IMG/VR virus record: IMGVR_UViG_3300032731_000385
Coordinates: 1 to 44,920 of that record
Length of the DNA: 44,920 bases
Direction: 5' to 3' (one strand)
Origin: a virus
Shown one piece after another: positions 1,830 to 6,480 of this stretch. The notes under the pieces were generated by a model that saw only the letters and a list, made by a program, of their open reading frames with translations, did no database searches and was not told the origin of the DNA. How positions within the stretch are numbered: the stretch's first letter is position 1; each line of letters starts with the position of its first letter. The position numbers were made by a program, and so were the translations under genes.

Positions 1830-2321
1830 ATGGCACTAGATATTCTTGATCCACAAGAAATAATGTTTACATCCTTTGAACCCAAAGTTAAAAACCGATT
1901 TATTGTTTATGTAGATGGTCTTCCAGCATATGCTATTAAAACTGCGGCAAGACCATCAATTACATTTGAAGAAATTGTATTAGATCATATGAACGTAAAA
2001 CGGTATGTTAAAGGTAAAGGTGAATGGGAACCAATTGAATTAACATTATATGATCCAATTGCACCATCAGCTGCACAATCAGTAATGGAATGGGTACGTT
2101 TATCACATGAATCTGTAACCGGCCGGGATGGGTACTCAGATTTTTATAAGAAAGATATTACTATTAATGTCTTTGGTCCAGTTGGTGATAAAGTTGAAGA
2201 ATGGACGGGTAAAGGATGTTGGATTCAGTCAGCTAATTTTAATGATTTAGATTGGACTTCTAGTGATCCTACAGAGATTTCTTTAACTCTCCGTGCGGAT
2301 TATTGGGTGCTTCAATTTTGA
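1830..2321 (+). CDS. 19: tail tube protein, T4 gp19-like
   Basis: Subunit of the inner tail tube that polymerises on the baseplate and passes DNA into the host. At 163 aa it matches T4 gp19 in length. Features typical of the family are the N-terminal stretch FEPKVKNRFIVYVDGLPAY, the motif GEWEPIELTLYDPI in the middle, and a C-terminal beta-rich segment with LTLRADYWVLQF. A GGAGAA ribosome-binding site precedes the ATG. It opens the tail block and is followed by small genes, then the gp26-like and tape-measure genes. High confidence. Confidence 0.9.
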   Translation: MALDILDPQEIMFTSFEPKVKNRFIVYVDGLPAYAIKTAARPSITFEEIVLDHMNVKRYVKGKGEWEPIELTLYDPIAPSAAQSVMEWVRLSHESVTGRDGYSDFYKKDITINVFGPVGDKVEEWTGKGCWIQSANFNDLDWTSSDPTEISLTLRADYWVLQF

Positions 2322-2978: not shown

Positions 2979-3249
2979 TGAAAAAATCTGAATTGCGGAA
3001 AATGATAGAGAAGAAATTCAAAAATTGAATGAGGGAAGGATTAAAGAAACTTTTATATTTAAAATTGGTGGTAAGAAAATTGAAGTGATAAATGCTGGTA
3101 CAAAAAAGTTTAAAAATATGAATGATCCTAAACAGGCTTTAAAAGATTTGAAAAGTATGATACAAGATGATTTACGTAAAGGTAAAGAAACGGGGTTTTA
3201 TCCTTATAATAATTTTGAATCGTCTATTAATTGGAAGCTAAAAAATTAA
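2978..3249 (+). pseudogene. small ORF broken by a one-base deletion near 3006
   Basis: The ATG at 2978 starts MKKSELRKMI, matching the start of the gene at 2467, then runs into a stop. Adding one base near 3006 restores EEIQKLNEGRIKETF and the open frame to 3249. Without this the only in-frame start is TTG at 3025, giving a 74-residue product with no ribosome-binding site. The downstream part (KIGGKKIEVINAGTKKF...) has normal coding character. Either a recently broken gene, a recoded one, or an assembly error. Confidence 0.5.
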
Positions 3250-3349: not shown

Positions 3350-4102
3350 ATGGCAGACGTAAAATTTCCGTCTGAAATAGTATCATTACCTAGCCAAGGT
3401 AAATATTATACAGAGGATAATCCATTAAAATCAGGTAAGATTGAAATTAAATATCCTACCGCCCAAGAGGAAGATATATTAACATCCCAAAATTTAATTA
3501 AGCGTGGAGTGGTTATTCCATACTTTCTTAAAGCGTTGTTTGTAGATTCTACAATTAATTTAGACACAATGCTTTTAGGTGATAAAAATGCATTAATGAT
3601 TGTAGCTAGAATTTTAGCATATGGCAACCAATATAACTATTCATATACATGTTCAGGATGTGGTGAAAAAAACGAAGAAATTGTAAATTTAAATGAATTT
3701 CCAGAAAAAGAATTTACATTTGTTGAGGTGTTTGAATTTAAACTCCCAGTATCTAACCGTGATATAACATTTAAATTGCTTACTCATGCAGATGAACGTG
3801 CAATAGAAACTGATGTTAAGGCTCTTAGAAAAGCATTAGGAGGATTAGTTGATCATGAGTTTACTACACGATTAAAATGCCTTATTGTTACGTTAGATGG
3901 CGAAACCGATCGCACAAAAATTAATAATTTTGTTGATAATGAATTTCTTTCTCAGGACTCTTTACAATTCCGTAATTATTTAGATACCGTGACACCTAAT
4001 GTTGAGATGGTAACAGAAGTTGAATGTAAATTGTGTGGTTATGAGGAGGAAATTACAGTGCCATTAACGGTACAGTTTTTTTGGCCTACCGCCAGAATCT
4101 AA
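3350..4102 (+). CDS. 26: T4 gp26-like baseplate hub / tail-assembly protein
   Basis: 250 aa with a good ribosome-binding site (CAGGAG). The N-terminus (FPSEIVSLPSQGKYY), the helical middle (GVVIPYFLKALF, LLGDKNALMIVARILAYG) and two CxxC pairs (CSGCG near 102; CKLCG near 226) are typical of the T4_baseplate family, to which gp26 belongs. It lies between the tail tube and tape-measure genes, the position held by tail assembly chaperones in many phages. It ends FFWPTARI just after a seven-T run (4076-4082), while the +1 frame stays open to 4292 without its own start; see the separate extension entry. Confidence 0.8.
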   Translation: MADVKFPSEIVSLPSQGKYYTEDNPLKSGKIEIKYPTAQEEDILTSQNLIKRGVVIPYFLKALFVDSTINLDTMLLGDKNALMIVARILAYGNQYNYSYTCSGCGEKNEEIVNLNEFPEKEFTFVEVFEFKLPVSNRDITFKLLTHADERAIETDVKALRKALGGLVDHEFTTRLKCLIVTLDGETDRTKINNFVDNEFLSQDSLQFRNYLDTVTPNVEMVTEVECKLCGYEEEITVPLTVQFFWPTARI

Positions 4103-4292
4103 ACCACAGATTCATACCGAAATATATCAATTAATTACTAAATCAAATGGTGGCTTCACTTTCAATGAAGCATATTCATTGCCAATATTTTTGCGTAGAT
4201 TTTATTTAACTAAAATCGCCGAAGAACAAAAACAACTTGACAAATTACACCAAGATATACAAAAAACTCCCCATTCCCGTCTAAAAACATAA
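4080..4292 (+). CDS. start-less +1-frame extension of the gp26-like gene
   Basis: In the +1 frame relative to the gp26-like gene, translation from 4083 gives 69 residues (GLPPESKPQIHTEIYQL... to PHSRLKT) ending at 4292. No ATG, GTG or TTG lies between the preceding in-frame stop (4065-4067) and the T-run; the only in-frame TTGs come about 100 bases later. A ribosome slipping +1 (or -2) on the TTT codons of the T7 run at 4076-4082 would make a 313-residue fusion. The encoded peptide is helical and charged, like the extension domain of G/GT-type tail chaperones. A sequencing or real indel (T7 instead of T6) is the alternative. Confidence 0.6.
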   Translation, partial: FGLPPESKPQIHTEIYQLITKSNGGFTFNEAYSLPIFLRRFYLTKIAEEQKQLDKLHQDIQKTPHSRLKT

Positions 4293-4336: not shown

Positions 4337-4558
4337 ATGAAATTACACGAATCATCAGTTTTGGATAAAATTTTATTGTTATTATTACGTGGCAATAAAA
4401 AAGCTATACAAAAGGTAGTTAGCCAAGACCCCGAACTACAAAAATCTGTTAGGGATTTAGAGCAGCAAATCCAACACCTTAAGAGTACTGGAGATAACAC
4501 AGTAAAACGAATCCAAAATAAATATAAAGGTACACCATACGAAAAATATTTTAAATAA
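4337..4558 (+). CDS. small protein of unknown function before the tape measure
   Basis: 73 aa from the ATG at 4337, which has a clear CAGGAG site; an upstream TTG at 4310 is less likely. The product starts with a hydrophobic Leu-rich stretch (LDKILLLLLRGN) followed by a charged, probably coiled-coil segment and ends GTPYEKYFK. It ends in a TAATG overlap with the tape-measure gene, suggesting coupled synthesis. Possibly a tail assembly factor; no family recognised. Confidence 0.7.
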   Translation: MKLHESSVLDKILLLLLRGNKKAIQKVVSQDPELQKSVRDLEQQIQHLKSTGDNTVKRIQNKYKGTPYEKYFK

Positions 4559-6480
4559 TGGCCGATCCTAAAATAACAGAGCTTAGAGAACAAACTCAAG
4601 CATTAAATGAAATTAAAAAAATACATGGCGAATTGTCCGATGCTCAATCGGATGAATTAGATTCCCTTCGAAAAAAATTAAAAGAACTTCGTTTACTCAC
4701 AAAGGCACAACAAAAACAAGCCGATATGGCGACACATTTAAAAAGTTTAGAATTTCAAATTAAAGATAATATTTTGGATCAAACTAAAGGCCGTGCTAAA
4801 TTAAAAGGAGTATTAAATCAGCAATTAGATATTGCTATTAATATTGCTAAAAATCAGCAAAAATTAGGGCAATCAATTTATAAGCAAATTGATTTTCAAT
4901 ATGCAATTAAAGATATAGAAACAAGTAGATTGGCAATTCAACAAAATTACTGGGGTGCAAATCAAGAATTAGGTCAAGAATTATTGAAAGATTTAGCTAT
5001 TACTGAAGAAAGATTGCAAGTTCAAAAATCAGCGGCCGCAGTACAAAATGTCGTTCATGATAAAACTGAAGAAATGAATGGCAAATTAGAAGAGGCTAAT
5101 CAAAAGTGGATAGATATTAAAGGTCAATTAATTGCTATTGTATCTAATCCTATGACTGCATTAAAAGTAGGTATATTAGCAGTGGTTGCTGGCATTGGAA
5201 AAGGGGTGATGAATTTAAAAGAATTCGCAGACGAAACGGGATTTTCATATGCACAGATGTCTAAAATAGGATTAGCAACAGCATTTGCTGGAGATGAGGC
5301 TAAAGCATTGTTAGATGAATTTGGTGGTATAAGTAATATTACAACAAAAACATTAATTGGTATGAAACTATTAAATTTACAATATGGAATAAGTGCTGAA
5401 GCTACTTCAAAAATGTTAGGGTTAATGGAAGGGATCAGTGGAGCTAATCGAGATACATTATTATCCCAAATTAAAGCTAATTCAGAATTAGCAAGAGCTG
5501 AAGGACTTTCTCCTGCGCAAGTGATGGAAGATGTAGCTAGTGATACGGAATTTTTTGCAAAATTTGCTAAAGATGGAGGTGATAATTTATTTAAAGCGGC
5601 AATTGAGGCACGTAAACTTGGGTTATCAATGGATGCAATATCATCTAGTGCAGAGAGTTTATTAGATTTTGAAAGTTCAATTGAAGCACAGATGGAAGCG
5701 TCAATATTATTAGGTAGACAACTTAATTTAGATACGGCTAGACGATTAGCGTTTAATGGTGATTTAGTTGGATTACAAAAAGAATTGGTAAATGTAGTAG
5801 GTACAGAAACCCAATTAAATGCCATGAATGTTATTCAACGTAAATCAATGGCAGATGCAATTGGTGTTAGCGTTGAACAGATGACTAAATTAGTACGTGA
5901 ACAGAATAAAGCTGGTAAATCTGCATCGTTTTTTGAGCACTCCTGGGTATTTATAAAAGAACATGCAATTAGTGTTGGTGCTATTATGGGTGGATTGTTA
6001 GGATTAGCAATTGCTTTTAAGGCAGTGCTGAGAGGAATTCTTAGCCCAGCCGCATCTGCTATTAGTGCATCAAAAGATTTAGCATTTTCTGCAGGAGCAA
6101 TAAGCGCAGGTGTAGCAGTAGGTGCAGGCGTAGGTGCATATGCAAAAGCTAAAATGGCAAATGATATTGCAATTCCGGCTGGAGGAACATCATCAATTAC
6201 AGGACCAGCTGGGACATTTACATTAAATCCAAATGATCAAGTTATTGCTGGGACTAATTTAGGAGGAGCATTTACATTAAATCCAAATGATCAAGTTATT
6301 GATGTACCGAATTCAGACCGTGCACAATCAATGGTTGATATGTCGGAAACAAATAATTTATTATCACGATTATTAGAATTTAATAAAGAAATGGTACAAA
6401 CAAATAAAAATTTATTAGAACAAAATAAACAATTAATGGGCGGATTAACCCGTAGCGTTAAAGGATTAGCAATTGACTAA
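4558..6480 (+). CDS. 29: tape measure / baseplate hub protein, gp29-like
   Basis: 640 aa, close to T4 gp29 (about 590 aa), which sets tail length and sits in the tube lumen. Residues 1-190 are charged and predicted to form coiled coil. A hydrophobic segment follows near 200-222 (VGILAVVAGIGKGVMNL), then a helical core with FADETGFSYAQMSKIG and SILLGRQLNLDTARRLAFNG, a second hydrophobic stretch near 472-492 (GAIMGGLLGLAIAFKAVL), and an Ala/Gly-rich segment. Such hydrophobic stretches are usual in tape measures. Near the C-terminus an 11-residue block (FTLNPNDQVI) is repeated with period 18 residues. Position after the chaperone-like gene supports the call. Confidence 0.75.
   Translation: MADPKITELREQTQALNEIKKIHGELSDAQSDELDSLRKKLKELRLLTKAQQKQADMATHLKSLEFQIKDNILDQTKGRAKLKGVLNQQLDIAINIAKNQQKLGQSIYKQIDFQYAIKDIETSRLAIQQNYWGANQELGQELLKDLAITEERLQVQKSAAAVQNVVHDKTEEMNGKLEEANQKWIDIKGQLIAIVSNPMTALKVGILAVVAGIGKGVMNLKEFADETGFSYAQMSKIGLATAFAGDEAKALLDEFGGISNITTKTLIGMKLLNLQYGISAEATSKMLGLMEGISGANRDTLLSQIKANSELARAEGLSPAQVMEDVASDTEFFAKFAKDGGDNLFKAAIEARKLGLSMDAISSSAESLLDFESSIEAQMEASILLGRQLNLDTARRLAFNGDLVGLQKELVNVVGTETQLNAMNVIQRKSMADAIGVSVEQMTKLVREQNKAGKSASFFEHSWVFIKEHAISVGAIMGGLLGLAIAFKAVLRGILSPAASAISASKDLAFSAGAISAGVAVGAGVGAYAKAKMANDIAIPAGGTSSITGPAGTFTLNPNDQVIAGTNLGGAFTLNPNDQVIDVPNSDRAQSMVDMSETNNLLSRLLEFNKEMVQTNKNLLEQNKQLMGGLTRSVKGLAID
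6215..6301. repeat. 33-bp perfect repeat, 54-bp period, in the tape measure gene
   Basis: The stretch starting CATTTACATTAAATCC occurs identically at 6215-6247 and 6269-6301. The 54-bp period keeps the frame (18 residues), duplicating the peptide FTLNPNDQVI. Perfect DNA identity suggests a recent in-frame duplication. Confidence 0.85.

Follow-up and report, generated by a model that had tools for sequence, protein, structure and literature searches.

A probable +1 ribosomal frameshift in the gp26-like, putative tail assembly chaperone gene of a lineage of T4-related phages

The gp26-like gene and its surroundings

The stretch of DNA analysed here (the window) is an IMG/VR virus record of 44,920 bases, whose features around the gp26-like gene are collected in Table 1. 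The 0-frame product of this gene belongs to the Pfam family of T4 gp26 and gp51, PF12322 (T4_baseplate), which it matches near full length with 37 bits against a curated cut-off of 24.5 (residues 26-245 on positions 9-219 of a profile of 219); it also matches phrog_150 (1.8e-12). Like genes of the G/GT type, and as the preliminary description had it, the gene lies between tail tube and tape measure. The first of these neighbors is recognized as gp19 by Pfam and PHROGs; the second, a 640-aa gene for which a search of the same collections returned no significant family match, is assigned from its position and from the annotation of relatives, its equivalent being called tail tape measure in Immutovirus and HTVC008M. 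Small ORFs are also present between the gp19-like and the gp26-like genes of the window.

Table 1. Tail-module features of the window around the proposed slip site.
Feature	Position	Strand	Remarks
Tail tube protein (gp19), context	1830..2321	+	PF06841 6.2e-7; phrog_4542 1e-30
gp26-like gene; 0-frame product, putative tail assembly chaperone short form (TAC-N, gpG-like)	3350..4102	+	250 aa, ends FFWPTARI; PF12322, phrog_150
Proposed slip site TTT TTT TGG (UUU_U)	4076..4084	+	161 loci; invariant context in relatives TTT[T/C]TTTGGCCT
+1-frame extension (C-terminal, gpT-like/gp51-like domain)	4083..4292	+	69 aa; FF-GLPPESK...RLKT in the fusion only; frame, conservation, hhalign chain
72-aa helical ORF in the chaperone/tape measure interval, outside the shift	4340..4558	+	comparable ORFs in L082, L083
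Probable tape measure protein, context	4558..6480	+	640 aa; position; annotation in relatives

The 3' end of the gp26-like gene reads ...CAG TTT TTT TGG CCT ACC GCC AGA ATC TAA, with the T7 run at 4076-4082 and the 0-frame stop codon TAA at 4100-4102. From G4083 onward the +1 frame is open for 69 sense codons, up to a TAA at 4290-4292, and a fused 0/+1 reading gives a product of 313 aa. Upstream of the slip site the +1 frame of the window is open for 5 codons only, and from the stop that closes it there to the twelfth codon after the slip it contains no ATG, GTG or TTG. The same holds more widely: 35 of 57 non-redundant relatives have no start codon for the extension at all, and among the others there is no start position that most of them have in common. 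The coordinates of the T run, the 69-codon opening and the lack of a usable start codon near the junction were therefore all given correctly in the preliminary description, which had also placed the end of the gene right after the T run; the stop is real, but lies six codons farther on. The locus combines a slippery site near the 3' end with a conserved out-of-frame extension that has no start of its own, as is characteristic of the G/GT type.

Some further observations concern the same region. Small ORFs resembling that at 4340-4558 occupy the corresponding position in LR756508 (L083) and in Mel-JY01 (L082). The gp26-like protein contains two CxxC pairs (CSGCGEK and CKLCGYE), zinc-ribbon-like in appearance, which some relatives, for example those of the Immutovirus type, have lost. 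Near the tail genes, at 252-1721, there is an inserted 489-aa protein with DUF7487 and a weak C-terminal match of the Mom type (DNA modification; PF25680, E 1.3e-4, below cut-off). A second small ORF at 2979-3249 begins with MKKSELRKMI, as does the gene at 2467-2802 (MNRTELRKMIKEEIQKL), and continues as REEIQKLNEGRIKETF... in the -1 frame only; the apparent one-base break near 3005-3010 may be an error, decay or another shift.

Conservation of the proposed slip site and of the extension

We have studied 161 complete sites, consisting of the window, 158 IMG/VR relatives and two isolate phages (Immutovirus and Mel-JY01), all of which retain both the slip site and a homologous extension. The site occurs as T7GG (TTTTTTTGG) in 120 of these loci, as TTTCTTTGG in 36, as TTTCTATGG in 4 and as TTTCTTTAC in 1. 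The arrangement is the same in the 80 closest IMG/VR relatives, with the exception of one that ends before the site, and UUU_Y sites are found in about 30 further loci besides the 161. Among the 57 non-redundant sequences all bases of the context given in Table 1 except the fourth are invariant. The first Phe codon is TTT in every one of them, while 21% of the other Phe codons of these genes are TTC (nominal p = 1.5e-6, with relatedness ignored).

Selection on the extension was assessed in the region past the 0-frame stop, where the +1 frame is the sole possible coding frame. Substitutions in this region fall at positions 1, 2 and 3 of the +1-frame codons in proportions of 27, 14 and 58%, and pN is lower than pS in 99% of the pairs. 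By these measures the extension evolves as a protein in the +1 frame, and on comparative grounds the conservation of slip site and extension is far beyond chance. A comparison of homologues for a conserved T run and extension, as proposed in the preliminary description, shows the extension in all 161 loci and the T7 run in most of them; T7 is not essential, as its variants retain the +1 frame. The relatives mostly show neither a plain fused gene nor a separately started one, the separately started cases being L294 and L299.

Relatives with a proposed backward shift or split genes, and the link to T4

A different arrangement is seen in cyanophages. In P-SSM2 and 80 IMG/VR cyanophage relatives (81 of 81), T_TTT_TTC closes the gp26 gene and is separated from the stop by a single codon, even though the preceding codon is variable (AGT, AAT, TCT, GCT); the gene called gp51 is in the -1 frame, open back through the heptamer. 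T_TTT_TTN with a -1 extension is also present in HTVC008M, S-CRM01, pf16, AS-zj, Cronobacter S13, RHph_Y68, Atu_ph04, OLIVR5, K575, a KVP40-type phage, S-CAM8 and S-B68, such that the related gp51 domain lies in -1 behind U_UUU_UUN in cyanophages, HTVC008M, KVP40-type, Aeromonas, Cronobacter and rhizobial phages. There is no start codon right at the junction in AS-zj, S13, OLIVR5, S-CAM8, HTVC008M and pf16; of these, AS-zj, S13 and S-CAM8 have no annotation for the extension. A clade of huge phages (LR756511, L279-L281, L313) likewise has T_TTT_TTC and its extension in -1; D503 and VP-1 have TAATG overlaps instead of the heptamer.

In a tree of 42 gp26 domains, a fully supported branch unites the +1 genes, the LR756511 clade (-1) and two separately started members. 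The exact place of the LR756511 clade is weakly supported (84/56), while L294 and L299 are nested in the +1 clade of the Immutovirus type (100/99). These two serve as a natural control: they have lost UUU_Y and carry the same C-terminal domain in another frame behind an ATG of their own. Thus, the slip codon has been retained by those genes that need it and given up by those that do not. The gp26-gp51 genes of cyanophages, Pelagiphage and KVP40-type phages resemble that of the window in having the slip at the conserved FF that ends the gp26 domain, followed by a homologous extension; they differ in the heptamer of the classical type X_XXY_YYZ at which they shift by -1, while the window gene has no such heptamer and would shift +1 at UUU_Y.

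T4 has two PF12322 genes, the short 26 and the long 51 (8.8e-64 and 3.9e-52, respectively), and gp51 runs about 48 residues past the end of gp26. With hhalign, the profile of the +1 extensions matches that of the -1 extensions of cyanophages and relatives (E 1e-6), and the latter match residues 200-247 of T4-type gp51 (E 1.7e-7); reversed controls of both comparisons were empty. When the +1 extension was compared directly with T4 gp51, no significant match resulted (E 0.23), and these two are thus connected by way of the -1 extensions as a bridge. By this chain of profile comparisons, the C-terminus of T4 gp51 is homologous to the -1 and +1 extensions. The T4-like gp26/gp51 pair and the window gene share the family (PF12322/phrog_150), the C-terminal domain (via cyanophage gp51) and the existence of a short and a long form, which T4 obtains from two genes and the window would obtain from one by a +1 shift. 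A review of T4 (PMC3004832) lists both proteins as hub assembly chaperones and describes gp51 as an essential protein that is missing from the particle and whose function is unknown.

Because the gp51 C-terminus is homologous to the extensions, the gp26-like gene is most likely the tail assembly chaperone gene of this lineage, with a short and a long form in the style of G/GT. Gene position, the two-form architecture and T4 genetics all point, by analogy, to a tape measure chaperone like that of lambda. Lambda gpG/gpGT resembles the window gene in its architecture, in its position before the tape measure and in the frameshift near the 3' end that adds a short C-terminal domain; the lambda shift is -1, and no sequence relation between the two was found. 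Structures were modelled for the 0-frame core and for T4-type gp51. The AF2 model of the core (pLDDT 89) matches gp26-type proteins in BFVD, and its best two PDB matches, over residues 1-94, are 3KLU (YqbN, which we take to be a relative of tail assembly chaperones; Z 5.7) and 2OB9 (the HK97 chaperone; Z 5.1), the next row being at 4.0; as unrelated matches occur in the same Z range, these fold matches are suggestive of a chaperone fold, not proof of one. For the gp51 model, the PDB yielded no match to a chaperone, and a sequence search of the PDB found nothing. The preliminary description had proposed that the gp26/gp51 position can encode a G/GT-style pair: the analogy holds comparatively, but the idea is not new, as gp26 and gp51 had already been identified as chaperones (Vladimirov, Gautam & Davidson 2022, Virology 566:9-15, as cited in PMC10885494 and PMC12846349).

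Direction, mechanism and meaning of the proposed shift

These results can be interpreted in terms of a forward slip of the ribosome. Most ribosomes would produce the short form of 250 aa. In a fraction of them the tRNAPhe in the P site, whose anticodon is GAA, would move by +1 at the UUU codons that lie just ahead of the 3' end, from UUU onto the UUU that overlaps it (UUC in relatives); translation would then enter the 69-aa C-terminal domain and yield the 313-aa long form. Some ribosomes at the run of U's would in this way very probably move one base forward, and one message would give two tail-building helper proteins. By analogy with lambda gpG/gpGT, the short form would coat the tape measure protein, and a few long forms would in addition touch the tail tube subunit or another tail part and in this way start assembly of the tube. 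Overall, we regard it as highly likely that this gene encodes the tail assembly chaperone of a contractile-tailed, T4-related phage, and that a +1 slip produces its two forms. The sequence, its conservation, the reading frame, the lack of a start codon near the junction and the homology of the extension are shown directly; that ribosomes do shift here, with what efficiency, and by +1 rather than -2 in this genome, as well as the role in assembly, we infer.

The preliminary description had left the direction of the shift as +1 or, alternatively, -2, and it is the sites without T7 (TTTC..., TTCTTTTGG) that bear on this question. The extension stays in the +1 frame at TTT CTT and TTT CTA sites (the latter also in LR756508), and the same is true of the homologous extensions behind TTT CGT in Streptococcus phage GXN1, TTT CAC in Bacillus phage SP-15 and TTC TTT TGG in L284-L298. 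Every variant offers UUU followed by U or C, so that a P-site tRNAPhe is able to step +1 onto UUU or UUC. The alternative that the +1 frame is reached by a -2 slip of the ribosome on T7, with one extra Phe in the product (FFF-GLPP), has in its favor that on UUU UUU U a P-site tRNAPhe moved back by two bases still pairs with UUU, and that a -2 shift is known in phage Mu (review, PMC5009743). At TTT CTT TGG, TTT CTA TGG, TTC TTT TGG and TTT CGT, however, the frame is the same, yet re-pairing after a -2 slip would be mismatched, while a +1 slip from UUU to UUY accounts for all of these homologous sites. Since sites without T7 hold the extension in the same +1 frame, +1 is favored over -2, and the frameshift reading is supported comparatively; -2 is disfavored also in genomes with T7 such as that of the window, and we consider it improbable.

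The same variants weigh on slippage of the RNA polymerase at T7, by which a share of the mRNAs would be one U short and the fusion would be read in the ordinary way. Runs of seven T's are able to slip, and the genome is A+T rich; nevertheless, 41 of the 161 loci have no T run longer than 3 (TTTCTTT, TTTCTA) and the L284-L298 group has four T's only, and in all of them the extension is still in the same frame. We consider this explanation a little less probable than the previous one. Less probable again is that the extension is a small gene (gp51), separately initiated or translationally coupled, with no fusion. Some relatives do have an independent start, as in the TAATG overlaps of D503 and VP-1 and the ATG of L294 and L299, and an ATG lies near the junction in many cyanophages; against this, neither the window nor 35 of the 57 relatives have an ATG, GTG or TTG close to the junction, and an out-of-frame extension goes with slip codons that are conserved in every base, an extension with its own start with their loss. 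That a single long gene was split by an extra T, from sequencing error (which homopolymer runs attract) or recent mutation, as the preliminary description had cautioned, is ruled out for the family, since 160 further loci, which come from a wide range of samples and from isolate phages and include non-homopolymer sites, are interrupted in the same way at the identical position; it has next to no likelihood for the window.

The +1 slip that we favor does not conform to the established signals. The -1 heptamer X_XXY_YYZ is absent, as G (of CAG) precedes TTT TTT and the extension is in +1. The A-site codon is TGG or CTT and not a stop, as it would be in a site of the RF2 type, and a Shine-Dalgarno-like motif, considered as a stimulator, is absent from 53 of the 57 non-redundant sequences, with none conserved; downstream RNA structure is weak in the same set (mean z about -1). 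In RF2 (CUU UGA), Listeria phage PSA, the predicted case of HSTV-2 and forward-shifted genes of SEA-PHAGES (PMC5009743, PMC10885494), one P-site tRNA slips forward, as proposed here; the window site differs in having UUU as the slip codon and neither an A-site stop nor an upstream Shine-Dalgarno-like element. A slip at UUU_Y fits a published remark, quoted in PMC10885494, which counts UUU with the codons that slip most readily at a site of the RF2 type. An RF2-like slip of CUU_U at TTT CTT TGG was also considered, and is unneeded because UUU_C covers all variants including TTT CTA.

According to a review of 2016 (PMC5009743), G-T frameshifting is widespread among long-tailed phages 'except T4'. 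That gp26 and gp51 are chaperones, and that T4 has the gene in duplicate, is known already, and papers citing Vladimirov et al. mention short and long chaperone genes in some T4-like phages (PMC10885494) and poly-T -1 signals in such genes (PMC12846349), so that the -1 shift in some T4-like phages is probably known as well. As far as the accessible literature shows, T4-type phages have so far been reported with a backward slip or duplicated genes only; the +1 case of this lineage, the change of direction at a single homologous site and the natural losses to split genes are in no accessible text (Vladimirov et al. 2022 being represented by the papers that cite it), and all three appear to be new. 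With somewhat more confidence than doubt, we propose that a distinct +1 signal, UUU_Y, with no A-site stop or Shine-Dalgarno stimulator, drives chaperone expression in a large lineage of aquatic and Bacteroidetes phages, and that, in the evolution of T4-type phages, a single homologous site, with which the gp26 domain ends, has changed among -1, +1, split genes and gene duplication. The arrangement of T4 would fit into this picture, with apparently the same two products obtained at the same protein position by +1, by -1, by a separate start or by duplicated genes. The sites would also be ready reporters for a +1 shift that needs neither a stop codon nor a Shine-Dalgarno-like element.

The reading would correct many phage records that lack the extension, give it in truncated form or list it as a separate gp51. 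In Microcystis phage Mel-JY01 (L082) the depositors list at 4776-5012 a separate 79-aa 'hypothetical protein' overlapping the gp26 gene, which is essentially the +1 extension. The same slip sites are carried by phage-like contigs of the lineage (L304-L313) that have been binned with MAGs of bacteria and archaea, Woesearchaeota and WOR-3 among them.
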